30,717 nt of DNA from a virus, in IMG/VR virus record IMGVR_UViG_3300017989_000316, positions 1 to 30,717 of that record; one strand, 5' to 3'. The translations under genes were made by a program, and so were the position numbers. How positions within the stretch are numbered: position 1 is the first letter of the stretch; every line of letters starts with the position of its first letter. The notes beneath the pieces were generated by a model. That model saw only the letters and a program-made list of their open reading frames with translations. It ran no database searches and was not told the DNA's origin. Positions 4,108-22,993 of this stretch are shown here, piece by piece.

Positions 4108-5436
4108 ATGAAAAATCTAGTTATTTTAATCGGACTGTTAGCCTTAGTTGGCTGTGGTGAGAAGACAGAGTTTGTACAAGCTAAGGGTGGTAAAGACGGT
4201 ACTAGCTGTACTGTAGAGCAATTTAAAGGTTATGCTAAAATCACTTGTGATGACGGTACAGAAGCTACCATTAAAGATGGTAAATCAGCTTATGATATTG
4301 CTGTCGAGGCTGGTTTTGAAGGTACTCTAGAAGAGTGGCTTATCTCTTTAGCTGGTAAAGACGGTAAAGATGGACAAGACGGATCTAATGGTCTTTCTGC
4401 TTATGAAGTAGCAGTTAAGAACGGATTTGTTGGTACAGAGTCTGAGTGGTTAACTTCACTCATTGGTGCTCAAGGTGCTGCTGGTCTTTCTGCTTATGAA
4501 ATTGCTATCAAGAATGGTTTCGTAGGAACTGAAGTTCAATTTCTTAATTCACTAATTGGAGCATCTGGTTCAAATGGCTTATCAGCATATGAGATCGCAG
4601 TATCTGCTGGTTTTCAAGGTACAGAGTCTGAGTGGCTTGATTCATTGCAAGGTCAAGATGGTGTTGACGGTGTAGATGGTGTAGATGGTTTATCTGCTTA
4701 TCAAATCGCTGTACAACTTGGTTTTCAAGGTACTAAAGAAGAGTGGTTAAAGTCTCTTATAGGTAAAGATGGTGCTGATGGAGCCGATGGTCAAGACGGA
4801 CAAGATGGTGCTAACGGATTGTCAGCATATGATATTGCTGTTAAAAATGGTTTTTTAGGAACTATTGCAGAATGGCTTAACTCACTTATTGGTGCTGATG
4901 GGCAAGACGGACAAGATGGGTCTGATGGTCAAGATGGTAAAAATGGCTTATCAGCTTACGAAGTAGCAGTACTTAACGGCTTCGTAGGGACTGAAGTTCA
5001 ATGGCTTGCATCTCTTGATGGAGAAGACGGTGTTGATGGACAGGATGGGCAAGATGGTGTCTCGTGTACTATCGTAGGTGATATACTCAAATGTACTGAT
5101 GGTACTTCTGTTAAAGTAACTACTGAGCCAGGTGTAAAACTTACTACATCTATTGCAAAGAAAAATAAATGTAGTCAAGTATATCCAGGACTTTATATTG
5201 AAAGTTTTGATAACGGTCTTTTCTTCGATGTATATTCTGACTCAAGATGTAAAGATAAAATCAACGGTACTTTATATGAATATTGCGATAACGTAGAAAC
5301 TTCTTACGGTGATAGCGGTGAGTTCGGATATGGTGATGAAGGTGCTGGTAGAGTATGCTGGGCTGGAGATATCCAGGTATCTGGAGCCAGACTTGCTAAC
5401 GGTGACATCGCAATCAAAATTTTAGACTTTAATTAA
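4108..5436 (+). CDS. Collagen-like repeat lipoprotein
   Basis: The 442-residue protein starts with a lipoprotein signal (lipobox L13-V-G-C16) and so should be exported and lipidated. Residues 60-303 hold seven copies of a GLSAYEIAVKNGFVGTEAEW-type unit of about 24 residues, separated by GXX collagen-like stretches (GQDGQDG, GVDGVDG). The last 120 residues form a separate Cys-containing domain (CSQVYPGLY..., CKDKINGTLYEYC, VCWAG). This repeat class is familiar from bacterial surface proteins and phage fibres, where GXX runs trimerise. Here the lipid anchor makes a virion fibre unlikely; a cell-surface protein made during infection or lysogeny is more plausible. It has its own promoter and an AGGAGG site. 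Confidence 0.9.
   Translation: MKNLVILIGLLALVGCGEKTEFVQAKGGKDGTSCTVEQFKGYAKITCDDGTEATIKDGKSAYDIAVEAGFEGTLEEWLISLAGKDGKDGQDGSNGLSAYEVAVKNGFVGTESEWLTSLIGAQGAAGLSAYEIAIKNGFVGTEVQFLNSLIGASGSNGLSAYEIAVSAGFQGTESEWLDSLQGQDGVDGVDGVDGLSAYQIAVQLGFQGTKEEWLKSLIGKDGADGADGQDGQDGANGLSAYDIAVKNGFLGTIAEWLNSLIGADGQDGQDGSDGQDGKNGLSAYEVAVLNGFVGTEVQWLASLDGEDGVDGQDGQDGVSCTIVGDILKCTDGTSVKVTTEPGVKLTTSIAKKNKCSQVYPGLYIESFDNGLFFDVYSDSRCKDKINGTLYEYCDNVETSYGDSGEFGYGDEGAGRVCWAGDIQVSGARLANGDIAIKILDFN
4288..5018 (+). repeat. Seven tandem SAYxIAVxxGFxGTxxxWLxSL repeats
   Basis: Seven protein-level repeats begin at about residues 60, 97, 128, 159, 196, 239 and 282 of the lipoprotein. The spacing varies because the GXX linkers differ in length (about 31 to 43 residues per unit). 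The DNA copies have diverged in codon use, suggesting an old expansion, but the array could still vary in copy number between related phages. Confidence 0.85.
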
Positions 5437-5449
5437 AATGGAGAATATA

Positions 5450-6103
5450 ATGAAAAACTTACTACTACTATTATTTCTAACTTTTGTTGCTGGGGAGGCT
5501 TTCCCAGCACACTTTAAAACAGGAAGCTCAGTACCTACACAAGACCTGGTTTCTGAATTACAAGATCTTTATGAAGCTAAAATTAAAGGTCATAAGGTTT
5601 ACGAGATTACTATTGAAGGTCATACTGACTCAAGAGGTAGTATAAAATTTAACCAAGCTTTGTCTGAGGCTCGTGCTAAAGCTGCACTAGAAAAGCTTAA
5701 GGAAATGGGTTTAAAATCAGATAAGGTTAAAACAGTTGGTTTTGGTGAAAGTAAACTACTAACACTAGGTTTAAGATCTAAAGATCACGCCAAGAATCGT
5801 AGGGTTGTTGTGTTTATTAAAAGTGATAAAGGTGAAACTAAGACAATTATTTCTGAATGTAAACCTGAAGTTAAAGAAAAGATCATTGTTAAAGAAAAGA
5901 AGGTCTATAGAAAGAACGCTGTAAAACTTTTTGTAGGACATGGACCTAATGAGCTAGATAAAGTTAACTCTGGAAGGGTAGAGCTTGAGAAAGATCCTTT
6001 TCTAGGTGTTGGTTATCAAAGAATGATTAACGATAGATTCAGCGTAGAGGCAATTGGCACTACTAATGAATCTTTTATGATTGGTGGTGGCTTACACTTC
6101 TAA
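5450..6103 (+). CDS. OmpA-like outer-membrane/peptidoglycan-binding protein
   Basis: I start at ATG 5450 (MKNLLLLLFLTF), six bases after a TGGAGA site; an ATG at 5438 is less likely. The 217-residue protein has a signal peptide (about 1-20). It then has an OmpA-C domain with TIEGHTDSRG (D60), LSEARAKAALEKL (R74), VGFGES and NRRVVVF (R118), the residues that contact diaminopimelate in this family. After a Lys/Glu-rich linker (about 128-156) the last 60 residues look like beta hairpins (FLGVGYQRM, FSVEAIGTT, MIGGGLHF). They end in Phe, as outer-membrane barrel proteins do. Too few strands are visible for a full barrel. It follows the collagen-like lipoprotein gene by 13 bases. Confidence 0.85.
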   Translation: MKNLLLLLFLTFVAGEAFPAHFKTGSSVPTQDLVSELQDLYEAKIKGHKVYEITIEGHTDSRGSIKFNQALSEARAKAALEKLKEMGLKSDKVKTVGFGESKLLTLGLRSKDHAKNRRVVVFIKSDKGETKTIISECKPEVKEKIIVKEKKVYRKNAVKLFVGHGPNELDKVNSGRVELEKDPFLGVGYQRMINDRFSVEAIGTTNESFMIGGGLHF

Positions 6104-13425: not shown

Positions 13426-15570
13426 TTATTGCTCAGCACTATTTGTTACTTGACTTACCTCAATGCTAATTGGGATGAAGTAGATCGCAGTAGCAGGTTT
13501 AATTTCAACACTAATTTCCATTACTGGACCATTAATGCTAACCTTAGCGTTTCTATACCCTAAAGGAGCATCATCACTAGCAGCGATAAGTTTCTGTTTC
13601 TTATAAAGATCCATCTTAGAAGCTAAGAAAGATAGTGCTGTTGAAGCATCTACATCAGCTAGTGACTGACCAACAAAGGCAGTTTGAAAGCTATCAGCAA
13701 GGTCAAGAGACACAAGGTCGATAGAGTACATAGCCTGAATGCTGTTGAAAACAAAGTTTGAATCAATAGCATAAGTAGTTTGGTCAGAAACCCACTTGCT
13801 TCCTACAACCCCTCTCTCAAGGAAAAGTAGACCAGCATCAAGAGCCTCTTCAATATCTCCAGGACTTCCAGAATCAAATCCAGAAGGATCTTCAAAACCA
13901 ATTACATTGGCAAATTTATTTACGATTGCTCTGTAGAAACCAGCAGCCTGCATACCAGCAGCGATACAAGCAGTATGCCATGGTAGGTAAGATACGATTT
14001 CTCCAACGCTATTTACTTGACTAGTTCTTTGGAAAGAAAGTGACATTCTAGCGTTAGCCATTGCAGAAGCTTCAGCTTTAGTGTCAGAGTAACTTCCCCA
14101 GAAACTTACAAATCCAGTTCTGTGTTTCTTAATCTTAGCTGTGGACATCTTAAGAACGTGGTTCTTGATAAGAGCGTTAACAGCAGAGATAGTGTAAGTA
14201 GAACTAGAGTCAGTAAGACCGTCAGCAATATCAGCAGTAGCATCTCTTGAAAAGAGAGGAATTACGAAGTTTACATCGATCCCTTCTAATGCTATAGTAG
14301 CAGAAGCTACGTCAGCAGCAGAAGTGGCACCTTTAGCTCCACCAGCCAAGAAAGCTACCTGAGCCATTTCATCTGGTAGACCAGCAGAAGCAGAAGCTTC
14401 AAAGTCTAGAGCAGTTGATTGACCTACAACATCTTTAAAGTTTTGTAATGCTCTCTTAATACGACCTGCTTTAAGTCCTGAACCGCTAGATGCAATTGTT
14501 TGAGCAGCTACCTGGTCAAGAGCAGAAGTAGGTGATTGAACTGAGGAAGTACCAGCAGAGGCACTATATCCAGTTTGAGAGTTGATATAATCAGCAAGAT
14601 CTTTAATAGTTGTAAACTCAGAAAGATCAATACTTAGGTTAGCACCAGAACCACCAGTTACAGCAGTTGTTAGTGAACTTGAAGTTATAGTTACAGTAGC
14701 AGTTGTACCTTCATATCCAATTTCAAGAGCAATAGCAGCTTCAGCCTGAAAAGACTCGTTTAAGCTGATATCAGATCTAAGAATATCGATTTGATGTCTT
14801 GGCTCTTGAGAAGACACTACCAATTGCTCAGAAAGTCCAAGTGAAGCAAGATCACCAGGAGTAGAGTCAATAAGTTCAAAAGACTTACCCCATCCTTTAG
14901 CAGCCGCAGCAGCATCGGCATCTACTTTTATTCTGATAGTATCAGTGGCAGTACCAGCTTCACAAGTCATACCAGCAGGAAGGGCTGCATCAATTTCAGA
15001 GATAACGGCTGTAAGGTCAGCAGGAGTAGCAAGTGTAACAACAGTTTCAGCACCACCGTTTAGACGAATAGTGAATTCAGCACCATCAAGGTCTCCAGCA
15101 CCAATATCGGCAGTGATGGCTACACCGTCTATTGAAGGAGCTACTTCAGCGTCAATTTCAGTTACTTGATAAGAGTACTTGTTACCGTCCAGACCAAAGT
15201 TCTTATCTTTAAGTGTACCATAGGATGTTGCTACAGCAGCAGAAGCCTGTGATCCACCGTTCGTTTTAACAATATAGATTCTATTAGCAGAACCAGTAAT
15301 GTTAGCATCAGAACTAGGAGCAGATAGGGCTCTAAAAGCATCTACGATTGGTCCAGAAATATATTTAGCCTCAACACGATCTAGTTGATCTGGGGTAAAA
15401 AAGTTTTCTTTTAAATCCTCATCAGTATATTTAGCTCCACCAGCAGCTTCACCGATGATTACGATGTTACCACTAGAAGCTACGCCAACTGGAGTAGACT
15501 TAACTTTTACATCAAAATACGCACCTGGACGATTTGTATTGATGAAACTAGTTGAAATTCTTTGAGCCAT
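13426..15570 (-). CDS. Contractile tail sheath protein
   Basis: The 714-residue protein begins MAQRISTSFINTNRPGAYFD and VASSGNIVIIGEAAGG, matching the N-terminal pattern of phage sheath subunits (a PGVY-like turn, then a hydrophobic strand). It ends with the conserved C-terminal domain (MDLYKKQKLIAASDDA, MEISVEIKPATAIYFIPISIEV). Its length, somewhat above that of T4 gp18, suggests inserted protruding domains in the Ala/Ser-rich middle (about 150-400). The subunit forms the contractile outer tail. It has a strong AAGGAG site and is transcribed with the tube gene. Confidence 0.93.
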   Translation of the reverse strand: MAQRISTSFINTNRPGAYFDVKVKSTPVGVASSGNIVIIGEAAGGAKYTDEDLKENFFTPDQLDRVEAKYISGPIVDAFRALSAPSSDANITGSANRIYIVKTNGGSQASAAVATSYGTLKDKNFGLDGNKYSYQVTEIDAEVAPSIDGVAITADIGAGDLDGAEFTIRLNGGAETVVTLATPADLTAVISEIDAALPAGMTCEAGTATDTIRIKVDADAAAAAKGWGKSFELIDSTPGDLASLGLSEQLVVSSQEPRHQIDILRSDISLNESFQAEAAIALEIGYEGTTATVTITSSSLTTAVTGGSGANLSIDLSEFTTIKDLADYINSQTGYSASAGTSSVQSPTSALDQVAAQTIASSGSGLKAGRIKRALQNFKDVVGQSTALDFEASASAGLPDEMAQVAFLAGGAKGATSAADVASATIALEGIDVNFVIPLFSRDATADIADGLTDSSSTYTISAVNALIKNHVLKMSTAKIKKHRTGFVSFWGSYSDTKAEASAMANARMSLSFQRTSQVNSVGEIVSYLPWHTACIAAGMQAAGFYRAIVNKFANVIGFEDPSGFDSGSPGDIEEALDAGLLFLERGVVGSKWVSDQTTYAIDSNFVFNSIQAMYSIDLVSLDLADSFQTAFVGQSLADVDASTALSFLASKMDLYKKQKLIAASDDAPLGYRNAKVSINGPVMEISVEIKPATAIYFIPISIEVSQVTNSAEQ

Positions 15571-16897: not shown

Positions 16898-17902
16898 CTA
16901 TTCTTCCTCATTATCTACATCTATAGTGGTCCAAAGGTCGTTCAATTCCTCATCTGAACCTTCAACAACATCCTCATTAGCACAGACCTTGATACCAACA
17001 CCAGGGTCCATAGCCTCACCTATCTCTATAAGCTCAACAGCTTCCCAAACTCTAAAAGGTGTTTTAAGCCAATCTTCTTCAACTTGTCCAGATAGCATAA
17101 TAAACCTGGAATACACATTATCTTGACCAAAAGCATCATTTTTGACCATATCGGTACACTGTAGAGTTCCTAACTGAAAGTTATTATATTCAAGTAGACC
17201 TTCTCTATACCTCAATAAAGCATATTTAACTAAGTTAAATAAAAACAATAAGTTAGCTGGATCTCCATGTGCATGACATCCAATATTATATGTTTCCTGA
17301 GATATAATTCTCTCTCTTCTAGATCTATATACCTGATATCTAGGTACTACAGCGACAGTATCCACATCCAATTGAGATCCTGGAGCAATCCTGAAGCCGT
17401 TGTTTCCAGCCTTTTCGATAATTATGAAGCCATTACCAGTATCTGGATCAATAGCCACCATATCTTTACCTACAAGATTAATACCCTCAGTCCCTTCAGG
17501 AGCCTCTACAATACCAGTATTCTCATCATATGATTCAATTTGAAAAGGCTTGACTATGTATGATATTGGCTTATTAATCTCACATGGATCAAGCTCTTCT
17601 ACACATACAGATTGATCTCCTAGAGTAGCTAAGTTCTTGTCTTCATTAGAATTTCCCATACTTATACTGACCGCTGGGAAATCCATATTATCAACACGAT
17701 ACTTCATGTAGAAATTGATTTTATTATTTAAAATCCACTCTCTAGCTCTATCTATTTCTTTTTGACCATATTTGTATTTCAGCATAGGATTATCTATGAA
17801 GTCTGAGAAGATGTCATCGATCAACCATGGGTCTTTCTTGATGTCATCAATAGCCAGTTCTATGGCTGTCTTGATAACTGTATCGCCTTGAAATAGAGCC
17901 AT
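16898..17902 (-). CDS. Virion-type protein of unknown role, 334 aa
   Basis: The protein has an N-terminal helical domain (about 1-75: TAIELAIDDIKKDPWLIDDIF...) and a middle beta-rich domain (about 120-200: SYIVKPFQIESYDENTGIVEA..., GFIIIEKAGNNGFRIAPGS). The C-terminal domain (about 205-290: LLFLFNLVKYALLRYREG, YSRFIMLSGQVEEDWL) is followed by an acidic tail (DVDNEEE). Its place before sheath and tube suggests a neck, tail-terminator or connector protein; this is inference from position. AAGGA precedes ATG 17902. It diverges from the 251-residue gene across a palindrome. Confidence 0.7.
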   Translation of the reverse strand: MALFQGDTVIKTAIELAIDDIKKDPWLIDDIFSDFIDNPMLKYKYGQKEIDRAREWILNNKINFYMKYRVDNMDFPAVSISMGNSNEDKNLATLGDQSVCVEELDPCEINKPISYIVKPFQIESYDENTGIVEAPEGTEGINLVGKDMVAIDPDTGNGFIIIEKAGNNGFRIAPGSQLDVDTVAVVPRYQVYRSRRERIISQETYNIGCHAHGDPANLLFLFNLVKYALLRYREGLLEYNNFQLGTLQCTDMVKNDAFGQDNVYSRFIMLSGQVEEDWLKTPFRVWEAVELIEIGEAMDPGVGIKVCANEDVVEGSDEELNDLWTTIDVDNEEE

Positions 17903-17977: not shown

Positions 17978-18733
17978 ATGTCTGATTTAAAGTTTGAAAT
18001 TGATGTGAATACTATAGCTTCCGAGTTTGGGGAGATGAAAAAACAGGTATCTAAGGATCTCAAGGATAGCGTTGGAAATCTAGCCTCAATGACCCATGCC
18101 AAAACCCTAGAATTAGCTGATGAGCACCTAAGCTCACTTTCTAACATGTATAAGGAAAATGTATCTTTTCAGCAGATTGAGGAGAATATATGGGTGGTTT
18201 CTTTGGATGAAAAAGCCCTTTGGATTGAAGAGGGAAGAAAAAGTGGCTTTATGGAAGAACTTCTTAACGGTAAGTCATCGAAAACAAACAAGAAAGGTGA
18301 GAAGTATGCTGTAATACCTTTTGAGCATTCTAAAAACCCATCAGATCAATCCTCAAAAGCAAGAGATTTGACCAATCAAATAAAGGCTGAACTTAAGAAA
18401 CAAGGTGTAAACTATAGAAAGCCAGAATACAATGCAGATGGTAGTCCTAAACTAGGTCTTATTAAAAGATTTAACGTAGAATCTGCCAAGCTCAAACCAA
18501 CAGATAAATCTAGTCCTTTACAGGGTGTAGCTATATATCAGAGAATGGAAGGAAATACAGTCAAAAGAGATGTAATGACCTTCCGTGTTATTACTGAAAG
18601 ACATAAAGAAGAAGGCAAGTGGGTACATCCAGGTAGAGAGGGTGATAAGCTTATGGATAAAGCCTTTGAGTGGGCTATGCAGACATGGGAAAATGAAGTC
18701 TTACCTGATGTGTTGAGTTCTTATGCAAAATAA
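17978..18733 (+). CDS. Possible neck/minor structural protein on opposite strand
   Basis: The 251-residue rightward gene interrupts the leftward structural genes; GAGGG lies upstream of ATG 17978. It has an N-terminal helical region (1-65), a central segment VVSLDEKALWIEEGRKSGFM and a C-terminal part KWVHPGREGDKLMDKAFEWAMQTW. The pattern of a xxWIEEGR element followed by an xHPG helix resembles HK97-gp10-like neck or tail-completion proteins, but it is longer and I cannot confirm this. Its rightward orientation and the palindromic promoter candidate suggest separate control. Confidence 0.7.
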   Translation: MSDLKFEIDVNTIASEFGEMKKQVSKDLKDSVGNLASMTHAKTLELADEHLSSLSNMYKENVSFQQIEENIWVVSLDEKALWIEEGRKSGFMEELLNGKSSKTNKKGEKYAVIPFEHSKNPSDQSSKARDLTNQIKAELKKQGVNYRKPEYNADGSPKLGLIKRFNVESAKLKPTDKSSPLQGVAIYQRMEGNTVKRDVMTFRVITERHKEEGKWVHPGREGDKLMDKAFEWAMQTWENEVLPDVLSSYAK

Positions 18734-18914
18734 TAATTTAATAGATTTAATGGTGTTTTTTCAATTAATGAGTTTTGGAATAGTGTATCTTGAAATGAAC
18801 AATATATCTAAGGACTGGAAAAAACTACCCCTAAAAACAAAAATAGGCAGGATTTTTATGCTTAACCTGCCTATCCTAGTAATAATATCTTTATTAATTA
18901 ACCCTATTTCTTAG
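18723..18914 (+). CDS. Small two-TM membrane protein, 63 aa
   Basis: ATG 18723 overlaps the end of the preceding gene by 11 bases, with a weak GAG site. Two hydrophobic stretches (about 7-24 DLMVFFQLMSFGIVYLEM and 42-60 GRIFMLNLPILVIISLLIN) flank a basic loop, a holin-like or small inner-membrane topology. A leftward terminator hairpin (18843-18874) lies within its second half, so the same DNA may serve both. The overlap with the preceding gene and a clear topology favour a real gene, but the evidence is moderate. Confidence 0.55.
   Translation: MQNNNLIDLMVFFQLMSFGIVYLEMNNISKDWKKLPLKTKIGRIFMLNLPILVIISLLINPIS
18833..18874 (-). terminator. Rho-independent terminator (leftward), inside a rightward gene
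   Basis: ATAGGCAGG (18843-18851) and CCTGCCTAT (18866-18874) form a perfect 9-bp stem with a 14-base loop. On the minus strand it is followed by TTTTTGTTTTT. It lies 30 bases past the stop of the leftward 79-residue gene (18904), as expected for the end of that operon. Confidence 0.8.
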
Positions 18915-19143
18915 GTCTTCTACCCATATGAACTGTGTGGGTTTTCTTTTGCTTAGCGTCTTTTCTGTTATATTGTTTAGATATAGGATCACCGTCCCAA
19001 TCTCTTGACATACCTGATCTACCAGAACGCCAAGAAACTTTACCAGTTTCACCATCCTTAACTTTTACCTTGCCATTCTTAACAGCACCGATAGGTTGTT
19101 GAGGTTTTTTTATGTGCTTAGTAGACTTATCTGGAAGACTCAT
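18904..19143 (-). CDS. Small basic phage protein, 79 aa
   Basis: A Lys/Arg/Gly-rich protein with a conserved-looking centre GAVKNGKVKVKDGETGKVSW, followed by RSGRSGMSRDWDGDP, and a basic tail (TVHMGRRPKK). The centre looks like a short beta hairpin; no catalytic motif is visible. Related short proteins occur near structural genes in other phages, but their role is unknown to me. The ribosome site is weak, only an A/G-rich tract upstream. The gene converges with the rightward island (11-base overlap) and is followed by a strong terminator. Confidence 0.7.
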   Translation of the reverse strand: MSLPDKSTKHIKKPQQPIGAVKNGKVKVKDGETGKVSWRSGRSGMSRDWDGDPISKQYNRKDAKQKKTHTVHMGRRPKK

Positions 19144-19169: not shown

Positions 19170-20591
19170 TTAAGGCTTTTTTTTTAAAGGTTTCTCAGAC
19201 TTTTTAAAGCCCTGCTCAAAATCCTCTTGCTCTTCTTGATCATCTTCAGTCTGCTCTTCCATATCAGCTTCAGGCATTGCATCCATAGACTCTTGCATGT
19301 GAGCGTCTTCTTCAGGGTTCATATTTAGAAGCTTAGCCATATCAATCATATTCTCAAGCATAGCTAATTGAGCCTGATACATTTTAGGGTTATCAGATCT
19401 TAGCTGCTCAAGCATCATTTTGTTTTCTTTGAATGCAAGTAGTGTTGAAGCAATCTTTTGTTTAAGCTCTTCACCAGCTTCTTGATCAGCAGGAGAAATA
19501 TCACTACCTTCCATATCTTCATCCATATTAGCGTGGATCATATCTTGTAACGCAGACTGTCTATCATCCCCACCTTCTTCAGGCATTTCCTCTGCAAATT
19601 CAGATTCTTCTTCACCCTCATGGTCTTCAGCACCAAATGACTCTTCCATATCAGCTTCAATTGAGTCAGCGTCAAGCTCATCGTCACGATTTTCTTTAGC
19701 ATCGTGAATAAACTCTTCTTCTTCACCCATTTCTTTCTCATGCTCTGGTTGAGCTTCAGCCATTTCTTCTGAGCCGTAATCACCATCTAGGTGTTCAGCA
19801 GGGGCATCTATTTCTTCAGTCTCTTCTTCAGAAAACTCTTTTAACTTATCTTCTGGGTCGTCCATCAAGTCTTCTTCAGAAACCTCACCTTCTTCCATTA
19901 GGTTTTCGCCTTCCTCACCTGGAAGGTCTTCATCGGTTTCCTCATTTACTGATTCACCATCTACAGCAGATTCTTCAGCGTCCTCTGCTTCTTCATCCAT
20001 CTCAGGGATTTCTTGTTCAGCAGCAGACTCTTCATCTCCCATTTCTTCATTTTGGTCAAATGAGTCCTCATCATAGTCACCATCTTCTTGACCATCTTCA
20101 TCTCTATCCTTGTCCATTTCATCTAGAGACTCTTCAGCCTCATCCATGTCTTCTTTTTCTTCCTGCTCATCGTCTAGAGTACTAGCTTCATCTTCTTCAT
20201 CGTGATCAGCAATATAGTCATCAATATGACCATCATACTCTACAACCTGATCTTTTTCATTCATTTTACCATAGATAAGAGCTTTGGAAGCTTCTGACAT
20301 AGAGTCACCAATACCAACAGTAGCACTGTGACCAGATTGATTAGCGTATTCGTCTTTTAGACCTTCAATTTCATCGAAATCAAAAGCATCGGCAGGAATT
20401 TTAAATATAGCCTCATCACCAGCAGATGTGATAACCTCACCACCTTTAGATTCAACCCACTCTTCAATTTTAGCATGAGCTTCTTTAAGACCACCAGTAA
20501 TCTTGGAAAGTTCTTCGTGGTTATCAGATGCAATAGCACCACCGATTTTACCACCTACATCATCTCCATTTATAGCTATAAATTTAAACAT
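19170..20591 (-). CDS. mCpol/Cas10-GGDEF-like palm domain fused to hyperacidic tail
   Basis: Residues 1-115 look like a small palm domain of the minimal-CRISPR-polymerase (mCpol) type. The features are a first strand ending IAINGDDVG (D10, D11), a helix, then GGEVITSAGDEAIF, where AGDE (57-60) stands at the GGDD/GGDEF position, and ATVGIGDSMSEASKALIYGK, the conserved strand-helix pair of nucleotidyl cyclases. The two acidic pairs needed to bind metal appear intact. Residues about 125-395 are an extremely Asp/Glu-rich tract. A C-terminal helical part (ASTLLAFKENKMMLEQLRSD) and a Lys-rich end (KKSEKPLKKK) follow. It sits among structural genes, so it may be a scaffold/internal protein or a nucleotide-signal enzyme. 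Confidence 0.8.
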   Translation of the reverse strand: MFKFIAINGDDVGGKIGGAIASDNHEELSKITGGLKEAHAKIEEWVESKGGEVITSAGDEAIFKIPADAFDFDEIEGLKDEYANQSGHSATVGIGDSMSEASKALIYGKMNEKDQVVEYDGHIDDYIADHDEEDEASTLDDEQEEKEDMDEAEESLDEMDKDRDEDGQEDGDYDEDSFDQNEEMGDEESAAEQEIPEMDEEAEDAEESAVDGESVNEETDEDLPGEEGENLMEEGEVSEEDLMDDPEDKLKEFSEEETEEIDAPAEHLDGDYGSEEMAEAQPEHEKEMGEEEEFIHDAKENRDDELDADSIEADMEESFGAEDHEGEEESEFAEEMPEEGGDDRQSALQDMIHANMDEDMEGSDISPADQEAGEELKQKIASTLLAFKENKMMLEQLRSDNPKMYQAQLAMLENMIDMAKLLNMNPEEDAHMQESMDAMPEADMEEQTEDDQEEQEDFEQGFKKSEKPLKKKP

Positions 20592-20603
20592 GTATATCTC
20601 CTA

Positions 20604-21554
20604 CTATTTCTTATTCGCTTTAATAGCATCAAGAAGCATTTCTACGTTATCTGTGGAGAATGACTTTGGAAATTTAAACTTATACTTTCCATCCTCAGCT
20701 TTCTTGATCTTAATATCTTTATTATAATGCTCACCATAGCAAAGACATAGTTTGAAACTATCTTCACCCTTGTATAAATTAGTATCACAGTCTGGGCAAG
20801 AAATTTTCTCAGATTTGTCAAGCTCAACCTTCTCTTGTCTCTTTTTTTCTCTATTTTCAAGAAACTCTTTAAGCTTGCTTTTTTTAGAAATATTATCCAT
20901 AACGTCTTCCTCAGACTCCTCTAATTCTTCTGACTCTTCTTCAAAGTCAATATCTAAATCATCATCTTCTTCCTCTTCAGCTTCTTCTACGTGAATAGCT
21001 TCAGATATCTTGTCCTGAATAAGTTTTTGAATAGCTTCTCTTTCAGAAATTCTTTGATCTACAACATCCTTTATAAGGCAGTGTAATTTAAGTCTTTCGT
21101 CTATAATATCCTGAAGTTTCAATAACTTAGGTTCTTCTTCCTTCTTTTCCTCTTTAATCTTATCAAAATCTGCCATATCATACAACTCGAATGTAGACAT
21201 AACAATTAGACCAATACCTGGTAAAGATCTATATTTGAACTCAGTCTTTCTCTTGCCATCTTGATAGATCTCACCCATATAAACATCATGAGAGACCTTG
21301 GTAACGTGCATTTTTGCAGGAGCAAAAGGAAGGTCAAGTTCTTTATTACCACCAATCTGTAGTGGTTTGAGGTTAGCCACAAGATAGCTCAATACAGCTC
21401 TAGGCACAATTTGCAAAGCTATTCTGATTTCTTCTGGGTCAAGGGCTGTTCGGGTATCTGGCTTAAAAATTCCTGATCCAATCTCAGCTTTTTTGATTTC
21501 TTCAAAAATATCCTCGCCCAGTAATTTTTTCGCTACTTGGACGTATTTTTTCAT
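20604..21554 (-). CDS. Acidic protein with C-terminal Cys cluster, 316 aa
   Basis: The N-terminal half (1-135) is a folded domain (PEEIRIALQIVPRAVLSYLV, KMHVTKVSHDVYMGEIYQDG, LPGIGLIVMSTFELYDM). Residues about 136-230 are helical then strongly acidic (EEAEEEEDDDLDIDFEEES). Near the C-terminus CPDCDTNLYKGED followed by LCLCYG gives four Cys in a zinc-ribbon-like pattern, then a basic Lys-rich segment. The gene lies 12 bases before the mCpol-like gene and its ATG shares a base with the upstream stop (TAATG). Not recognised; an internal virion or assembly protein is plausible from context. Confidence 0.75.
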   Translation of the reverse strand: MKKYVQVAKKLLGEDIFEEIKKAEIGSGIFKPDTRTALDPEEIRIALQIVPRAVLSYLVANLKPLQIGGNKELDLPFAPAKMHVTKVSHDVYMGEIYQDGKRKTEFKYRSLPGIGLIVMSTFELYDMADFDKIKEEKKEEEPKLLKLQDIIDERLKLHCLIKDVVDQRISEREAIQKLIQDKISEAIHVEEAEEEEDDDLDIDFEEESEELEESEEDVMDNISKKSKLKEFLENREKKRQEKVELDKSEKISCPDCDTNLYKGEDSFKLCLCYGEHYNKDIKIKKAEDGKYKFKFPKSFSTDNVEMLLDAIKANKK

Positions 21555-22072: not shown

Positions 22073-22993
22073 TTATTCAAACGAGTTTACGTTTACCTTA
22101 ACCTGGTACTTATTAGGATCTACAGCCTCTTCCTGCTCTGGCTTAGTTCTGTCAGTTTCGGTTTCTTTACTAGTATCCTTGCTATCCCCACGATTACGGT
22201 TATGATATACATATTCACGCTGTATCATAACGTGATACCCCATACGTGACTCTTTCCTCTCATTTCCAGTAGTTACGTTACCTATTCTAAGTTCATTTAT
22301 AATAGCCGCAACATACCAGTGAGCCTCATATCTATATCTTATCGAATAAACCCTTCCTTTTCCAGTATCTGGGTCAATTCCAGGGTTCTTTTTGCTTTTC
22401 ATCCACTGAATATTTCCCTCTTTATTGATCTTGAAATGAACACCTTCTTTGTACTCATTACCTTGAGAGTCCATTACAAATTCAACTTTGGTAGCTGGAA
22501 ACTGTAAGTAGTCGGAACCATTAGGATTATATTCTACACGCTGATAGTTAACAACGTCTTTCTCATCTTTCTCTACATTCTTTAGATATAGTCTATCACC
22601 TTGAACCAGGTGAATACGCTCACCCTGAGCCTCATCACCGTCTTCTAAGTAGAACCTAGGCAGTGTAAGTCTAGCCTCTGAATAGTCATACAGACCACCC
22701 TCCACAGGTTGTTTAGACTTGTTATTACTTAGAACAACACCTTTAAATTCACCATATTTCTTGTATACAAAACCGTTCTCAGATATGGTATCAAGTGAAT
22801 CAGATCTTCTGTATTCACCTCTGTCTTTAAGACCAATTGGTGAAGGCATGGCTCTATAGTGAATAAAGCAAATACCATGAGAGTTAACGAACTGATCTTG
22901 TTTATCTAAATTAAACGAGATCTGCTCCAATTCCATGGGCTGCTTTGGTAATGTATTTAATTGCAGCTTACCTGCTTCTTTCTTTTTTGCCAT
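22073..22993 (-). CDS. Virion-type hypothetical protein, 306 aa
   Basis: The protein is rich in charged and aromatic residues. An N-terminal region (1-60) contains HGICFIHYRAMPSPIG, and a DRGEYRRSDS segment follows. The centre is beta-rich (about 75-220: VLSNNKSKQPVEGG..., RIHLVQGDRLYLKNVE, YSIRYRYEAHWYV). A polar, low-complexity tail (RNRGDSKDTSKETETDRTKP...) ends it. I do not recognise the family. Position upstream of the decoration-like gene suggests a head or connector protein. It overlaps the upstream gene by 26 bases and an AGGA site lies before ATG 22993. Confidence 0.7.
   Translation of the reverse strand: MAKKKEAGKLQLNTLPKQPMELEQISFNLDKQDQFVNSHGICFIHYRAMPSPIGLKDRGEYRRSDSLDTISENGFVYKKYGEFKGVVLSNNKSKQPVEGGLYDYSEARLTLPRFYLEDGDEAQGERIHLVQGDRLYLKNVEKDEKDVVNYQRVEYNPNGSDYLQFPATKVEFVMDSQGNEYKEGVHFKINKEGNIQWMKSKKNPGIDPDTGKGRVYSIRYRYEAHWYVAAIINELRIGNVTTGNERKESRMGYHVMIQREYVYHNRNRGDSKDTSKETETDRTKPEQEEAVDPNKYQVKVNVNSFE

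Follow-up and report, generated by a model that had tools for sequence, protein, structure and literature searches.

The phage DNA analyzed here, a stretch of 30,717 nucleotides referred to below as the window, encodes an mCpol-family palm domain within a protein of its particle-building genes. We consider it probable that this protein represents a captured mCpol palm, which should be catalytically dead, kept as part of a particle-module protein. Orthologous phage proteins share the domain, the architecture and the gene order, and form a single clade. The features of the gene and its product are as follows.

19170..20591, minus strand: mCpol-protein gene (ORF, 473 aa)
20220..20591, minus strand: mCpol-fold palm domain, residues 1-124 (PF18182, E 8e-14; best structural match OptS)
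20568..20570, minus strand: N8, equivalent of the OptS metal ligand D6; Asn throughout the window's branch
20412..20420, minus strand: G58-D59-E60, hairpin at the GGDD/GGDEF position; D59 corresponds to OptS D57 and is retained
19557..20219, minus strand: acidic low-complexity tail, approximately residues 125-345, mostly predicted to be disordered
19284..19544, minus strand: conserved C-terminal region, with a DMIHANM motif and helices 367-436 (FKENKxMLEQ..NPKxYxA..MIxMAKxLNMNP)
19194..19202, minus strand: K464-S465-E466, junction of acidic tail and basic end; a candidate prohead-protease site, purely putative

Domain Identity and Protein Architecture

The Pfam mCpol family PF18182 matched residues 4-119 of the protein with an E-value of 8.3e-14 and 52.4 bits, compared to a curated cut-off of 26.4; most relatives also passed this cut-off, with Mx1 falling just under it at 21 bits. 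Among solved structures, the only meaningful relatives by sequence were the Panoptes OptS chains 9nwn and 9mnr (E 4e-9). An AlphaFold2 model of the palm, built from six aligned phage sequences, had a pLDDT of 95.2. When this model was compared to known structures with Foldseek, ranks 1-6 were all OptS/mCpol, with E-values down to 2.4e-11 and TM-scores of 0.81-0.86, and VIA-align gave a Z-score of 18.2 to OptS compared to 13.8 for the next fold. The domain is thus a member of the mCpol family by sequence and by its predicted OptS-like palm fold, and these comparisons uphold the call of an mCpol palm that an earlier note had made from the raw sequence. The motif letters quoted in that note are also correct (GDD at 9-11, AGDE at 57-60, and VGIGDSMSEASKAL). 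The identity of a GGDEF diguanylate cyclase was rejected, as PF00990 did not match the window protein; it found no match in the window or in the phage relatives searched, except for a different gene of Mx1. PHROGs contained no family for the mCpol protein.

From N- to C-terminus, the 473-aa product consists of the mCpol-fold domain, a long acidic disordered tail, a helical C-terminal region, and a short basic end. Asp and Glu make up 41% of residues 121-473, which bears out the description of this tail as very acidic, and 13-37% of the tails of relatives. The full-length model was confident for the palm and the C-terminal helices only, the tail being mostly of low confidence. All orthologues retain the long tail, usually very acidic, as well as the C-terminal helical region, and the basic end is frequent; tail acidity is much lower in Mx1 and L077 than in the other members, and the L083 orthologue has an N-terminal extension. 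The palm is conserved far above the tail. The acidic tails of L073, L071, and L094 contain YQDQYDE repeats, the copy number of which varies between near-identical phages. Enrichment of K-S/T-E tripeptides as protease sites was not supported for the mCpol tails (10 observed compared to 7.1 expected), nor across the late proteins of the window.

Register of the Active Site

Interpretation of the domain depends upon its alignment with OptS, the metal ligands of which are D6 and D57 (PMC12657218). Mutation of either residue to Asn abolishes the product, D6N alone being sufficient to stop cyclic-dinucleotide synthesis, and D8, which OptS also has, failed to rescue D6N (PMC12657218). The two proteins align without gaps from strand 1 through the hairpin, with IAIDGDDVG in OptS facing IAINGDDVG in the phage protein and QAADG facing SAGDE. 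D6 of OptS therefore corresponds to N8 of the window protein, D8/D9 to D10/D11, and D57 to D59. The assignment of D10/D11 as the strand-1 metal ligands in the earlier note was an error of register, and its premise that the metal ligands are intact does not hold here, since the D6 equivalent is Asn throughout the branch. Cellular palms of the mCpol and Cas10 families were sampled for comparison, a few of the loci being duplicates of one genome; Asp was found at position 6 in 38 of 38 and at position 57 in 40 of 40. The active mCpol enzyme has both aspartates, whereas the window protein and its whole branch have Asn at position 6; this phage branch thus naturally carries the substitution used in the laboratory to kill OptS. 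Given that the D6N version of OptS is inactive, proteins of the window's branch are expected to have lost cyclic-nucleotide synthesis. D59, E60, and the two C-terminal lysines, conserved beyond purely structural needs, could reflect a retained nucleotide chemistry.

Orthologues Fall into Three Residue States

Direct searches yielded close relatives, with a domain identity of 55-90%. To reach further, viral contigs were scanned with the neighboring genes and those loci were then searched with an iterated profile, by which route we reached 24 distinct orthologues, a count that includes the window and also L076, whose frame is broken. A tblastn search with the domain as query gave no hit among 50,697 phage records, even with the E-value relaxed to 0.01. 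There was likewise no match when the A2 profile was run against bacterial and archaeal genomes, one per species, or when viral contigs were searched with the Mx1 domain. Only the neighboring proteins led to Myxococcus phage Mx1, the sole relative with annotation. Its protein WNM70340.1 scored 44.9 bits against the phage profile over the palm, compared to 10.1 for the best of 2000 shuffles, and also matched over the C-terminal helical region.

The orthologues differ in their catalytic aspartates. In the window's branch, Asn is found at position 6 in 10 of 10 members and D57 is retained (the window, L002/L009, L003, L004, L005, L006/L007, L063/L064, L067, L074, and the frame-broken L076, which also reads NGD). 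Both aspartates are present in 12 orthologues, mostly as GGDE; these are a set of lineages and should not be read as one clade (L068, L069, L070, L071, L073, L075, L083, L086, L094, L097, L098, and L099). Both ligands are lost in the two most distant orthologues, Mx1 and L077. The earlier note had made an enzymatic role depend upon a palm-type fold and upon retention of the acidic residues among homologues. Among close homologues D10, D59, and E60 are indeed invariant, but these residues do not make up the complete catalytic set; at the distant end the palm still matches Mx1, but both Mx1 and L077 are without both ligands.

When cellular mCpol and Cas10 palms were included in a tree, the phage mCpol proteins formed a single clade (support 99/99), within which the Asn branch was also a single clade (95/87). 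The three residue states can be explained by two changes from an intact ancestor, so that the intact state is most simply ancestral in the phages. Mx1 and L077 are a long-branch pair that may be joined falsely, their grouping and placement on the tree being unsure, and two changes is therefore a minimum count.

The ratio dN/dS of the domain was approximately 0.08-0.16 within the window's branch, demonstrating purifying selection and indicating that the mCpol gene is real and selected. Of 128 alignment columns, 33 do not vary within the Asn branch, among them, in OptS numbering, N6, G7, D8, position 11, G56, D57, E58, and lysines 105 and 109. The pocket is thus still under selection despite one lost ligand, which argues against the palm being a mere appendage and suggests either nucleotide binding or a structural use.

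The mCpol gene of L094 differs from those of L073 and L095 over its first approximately 90 residues, with flanks that are 97-100% identical. Immediately ahead of this mCpol gene lies an inserted HNH-type endonuclease gene (L094:302-1228 and 1238-1518). Selective swapping of the L094 domain was set aside, since the presence of this gene at the junction makes co-conversion the simpler reading; the 5' divergence is a probable consequence of homing with co-conversion.

Neighborhood of the Gene

The mCpol gene of the window lies among the following genes.

22073..22993, minus strand: virion structural protein, phrog_1004, head and packaging; conserved neighbor
20604..21554, minus strand: 316-aa Cys-motif protein, directly upstream; conserved neighbor
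18904..19143, minus strand: small basic ORF, 79 aa, downstream of the mCpol gene
16898..17902, minus strand: tail-terminator-like protein; conserved neighbor
13426..15570, minus strand: tail sheath protein

The order runs from the phrog_1004 head protein upstream to the Cys-motif protein, the mCpol gene, the basic ORF, and the gp10-like, tail-terminator, sheath, and tube genes; the 20 loci checked all keep it up to the limits of their contigs. The earlier placement of the gene in a phage structural module was right, this order of head, neck, and tail genes being conserved. We infer from gene order alone that the mCpol protein is a late particle-module protein and a member of the virion. In L002 and Mx1, the mCpol protein carries a homologue of the basic ORF as a C-terminal fusion.

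The gp10-like neck gene runs opposite to its neighbors in the window (17978-18733, plus strand) and in L002, the closest relative of the window (at about 2577, minus strand), and is co-directional in all other relatives checked. Its occurrence on two separate contigs makes this look like a real inversion of a single gene.

A scaffold gene is expected immediately before the major capsid gene, whereas the mCpol gene lies between head-neck genes. No capsid gene was found within the window itself. In three relatives and in Mx1 the capsid gene lies elsewhere and has its own scaffold-like gene directly upstream, which indicates that the mCpol protein is not the standard scaffold. These scaffold-like genes, all rich in K-S/T-E, are found at the following positions.

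L111:1875-2627, scaffold-like gene
L112:5915-6733, scaffold-like gene
L113:1749-2378, scaffold-like gene
L013:4799-5671, scaffold-like gene

The scaffold-like proteins contain 6, 9, 7, and 3 K-S/T-E tripeptides compared to about 0.3-1 expected, making K-S/T-E a candidate recognition motif of the prohead protease of this lineage.

Signaling and Defense Context

A Panoptes system is an OptS operon with an OptE effector, and the window locus has no such partner. The OptE-type receptor domain PF18153 (S-2TM-beta/Cap15-type) was not matched in the window or in 13 related records, although most of these are fragments and the absence is thus no proof; as a positive control, the same search found a match beside OptS in a Rahnella genome. 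PADLOC gave a weak match of the mCpol protein to CARF_HEPN_mCpol (E 6.5e-5). The Acb2/Tad1 hairpin family PF24729 had no match in 14 records, and its controls gave none either. In the literature that we covered, which left subscription papers and preprints largely outside the search, mCpol is described from bacteria and archaea and as a defense enzyme only, and we found no published description of mCpol proteins in phage genomes.

The window protein has the palm fold across residues 1-124 in common with Panoptes OptS (9mnr, 9pd0, and 9nwn; approximately 30% identity), along with the IAxxGDDVG strand-1 motif, D57, GxG, the EA..L helix, and the two C-terminal lysines. It differs from OptS by Asn in place of D6, by Lys at the position of N34, by its fusion to the acidic tail and helical C-terminus, by its location in a phage structural module, and by the lack of an OptE partner. 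Its syntenic orthologue in Mx1 (WNM70340.1, hypothetical protein) has the same palm-derived N-terminus, C-terminal helical region, and neighbors, but has lost both catalytic aspartates, has a much less acidic tail, and is fused to the basic downstream module. The Cas10 palm of type III CRISPR and the GGDEF cyclases share the fold and the position of the GD(D/E) hairpin with the window protein, but are structurally less similar (Z about 13), and the window gave no GGDEF profile match. The GGDEF domains of virion-delivered phage polyvalent proteins have been proposed to silence defenses through their product (PMC5512222) and so set a precedent for the notion of cyclases delivered by the virion; they also represent a nucleotide-cyclase-type domain encoded with virion genes; the window protein differs from these in having one enzyme-type domain only, no polyvalent architecture, and a degenerate catalytic site.

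Model for the Origin and Use of the Domain

We propose that the phages concerned are myophages related to Myxococcus phage Mx1, in which the mCpol gene would be a late gene of the particle module. Cellular genes would be the source of the palm, which the phages would have captured once, probably as a functional enzyme. It would have become part of the head/neck operon, joined to a long tail of acidic, disordered sequence and to conserved C-terminal helices. Within the phage lineage it would then have been disabled at least twice. In the window's branch, Asn took the place of the first metal ligand, with the presumed loss of cyclic-nucleotide synthesis predicted from the OptS D6N mutant. Conservation of the rest of the active-site motif indicates that the domain probably serves as a platform that is folded and self-associates, and that perhaps binds nucleotides. 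During maturation the helical C-terminus may anchor the protein in the particle; the acidic tail may serve as a flexible spacer or a DNA-mimic. The Mx1 orthologue is without both ligands, yet keeps the domain, the C-terminal region, and the position of the gene.

The earlier note had first suggested a phage enzyme whose nucleotide signal could silence or jam defenses. For such a cyclase to be active in this phage, D10, D59, and E60 would have to replace the missing Asp, and its product would silence Panoptes-like or CBASS-like systems. The rest of the active-site motif is invariant in the branch, relatives with D6 and D57 intact exist, a similar action was proposed for the GGDEF domains of polyvalent proteins (PMC5512222), and the Panoptes paper anticipates that phages have a way to counter the system (PMC12657218). 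OptS D6N, however, is identical to the window protein at positions 6, 8, and 57 and yields no product (PMC12657218), Asn is found in every member of the branch, and the gene lies within a late structural operon. On this analysis it is unlikely that this phage encodes an active signal-producing enzyme, N8 being the obstacle; the enzymatic idea would fit the two-aspartate group better, judging from its residues, and could still hold there. A dead palm might instead serve as a decoy, either binding (cyclic) nucleotides as a sponge or pairing with host OptS/Cas10-like subunits as a dominant-negative against signaling defenses. The active site of mCpol is shared between protomers (PMC12657218), making mixed dimers conceivable, and the pocket other than D6 is conserved. 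An identity of only approximately 30% to OptS makes such dimers doubtful, however, the gene is kept in Mx1 and L077 without the pocket residues, and no Acb2/Tad1 hairpin gene was seen alongside, in a search whose controls were equally unmatched. We regard a decoy as rather improbable.

Acidic tails occur in phage core proteins, and the second suggestion of the earlier note was a co-opted fold inside a scaffold-like protein. Co-option into a particle protein fits this phage better than an enzyme does, but the usual scaffold does not, relatives having a separate scaffold-like gene. A version in which only the tail matters, the palm being an accidental appendage of an ordinary scaffold or core protein, draws on the presence of the tail in all members, though it is far less acidic in Mx1 and L077. 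It is quite unlikely, given that the three relatives and Mx1 have a separate scaffold-like gene, rich in K-S/T-E, just ahead of the capsid gene, and that the palm is much more strongly conserved than the tail and under purifying selection. That the phage carries a Panoptes-type defense against competing phages is largely refuted and very improbable indeed: the mCpol domain is present and PADLOC gave its weak match, but the OptE/Cap15 receptor domain was matched in the OptS control genome and not in the window and 13 related records, and the gene lies inside a structural operon.

With a captured and disarmed palm as the preferred reading for the window, we raise tentatively, as an unlikely extension, that orthologues in which DGD and GGDE are intact function as particle-encoded synthases of cyclic dinucleotides. 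Produced late in infection or brought in by the particle, they would supply Panoptes-like systems with their inhibitory signal; the window's branch would then be a later disarmed derivative kept for assembly. If true, the intact orthologues would be a phage answer to a defense that punishes signal depletion, and they are a concrete candidate for the counter-measure predicted by the Panoptes authors (PMC12657218). The whole phage lineage holds mCpol as a fixed gene of its particle-building module, in intact and naturally disarmed versions. The series of intact, Asn at position 6, and fully lost bears upon whether phages make, hold, or ignore cyclic nucleotides with the mCpol fold, and also upon how a defense enzyme turns into a particle part.

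Additional Observations

Mx1 encodes a separate GGDEF-domain protein, WNM70324.1 (L013:3174-3905; PF00990, E 1.3e-9), with an intact NGGDEF; its gene lies between the prohead protease and capsid genes and is absent from the other eight records searched. A 630-aa head protein (L112:768-2660) contains HCFTGDTLLYTSEGVFAFEEL, which, read by eye, resembles the start of an intein. In the window, a lipoprotein-like gene (4108-5436, plus strand) with GKDGQDG collagen-like and SAYE(I/V)A..GF.GT..EWL repeats adjoins a gene for an OmpA-C-like protein (5438-6103, plus strand), both likewise recognized by eye.
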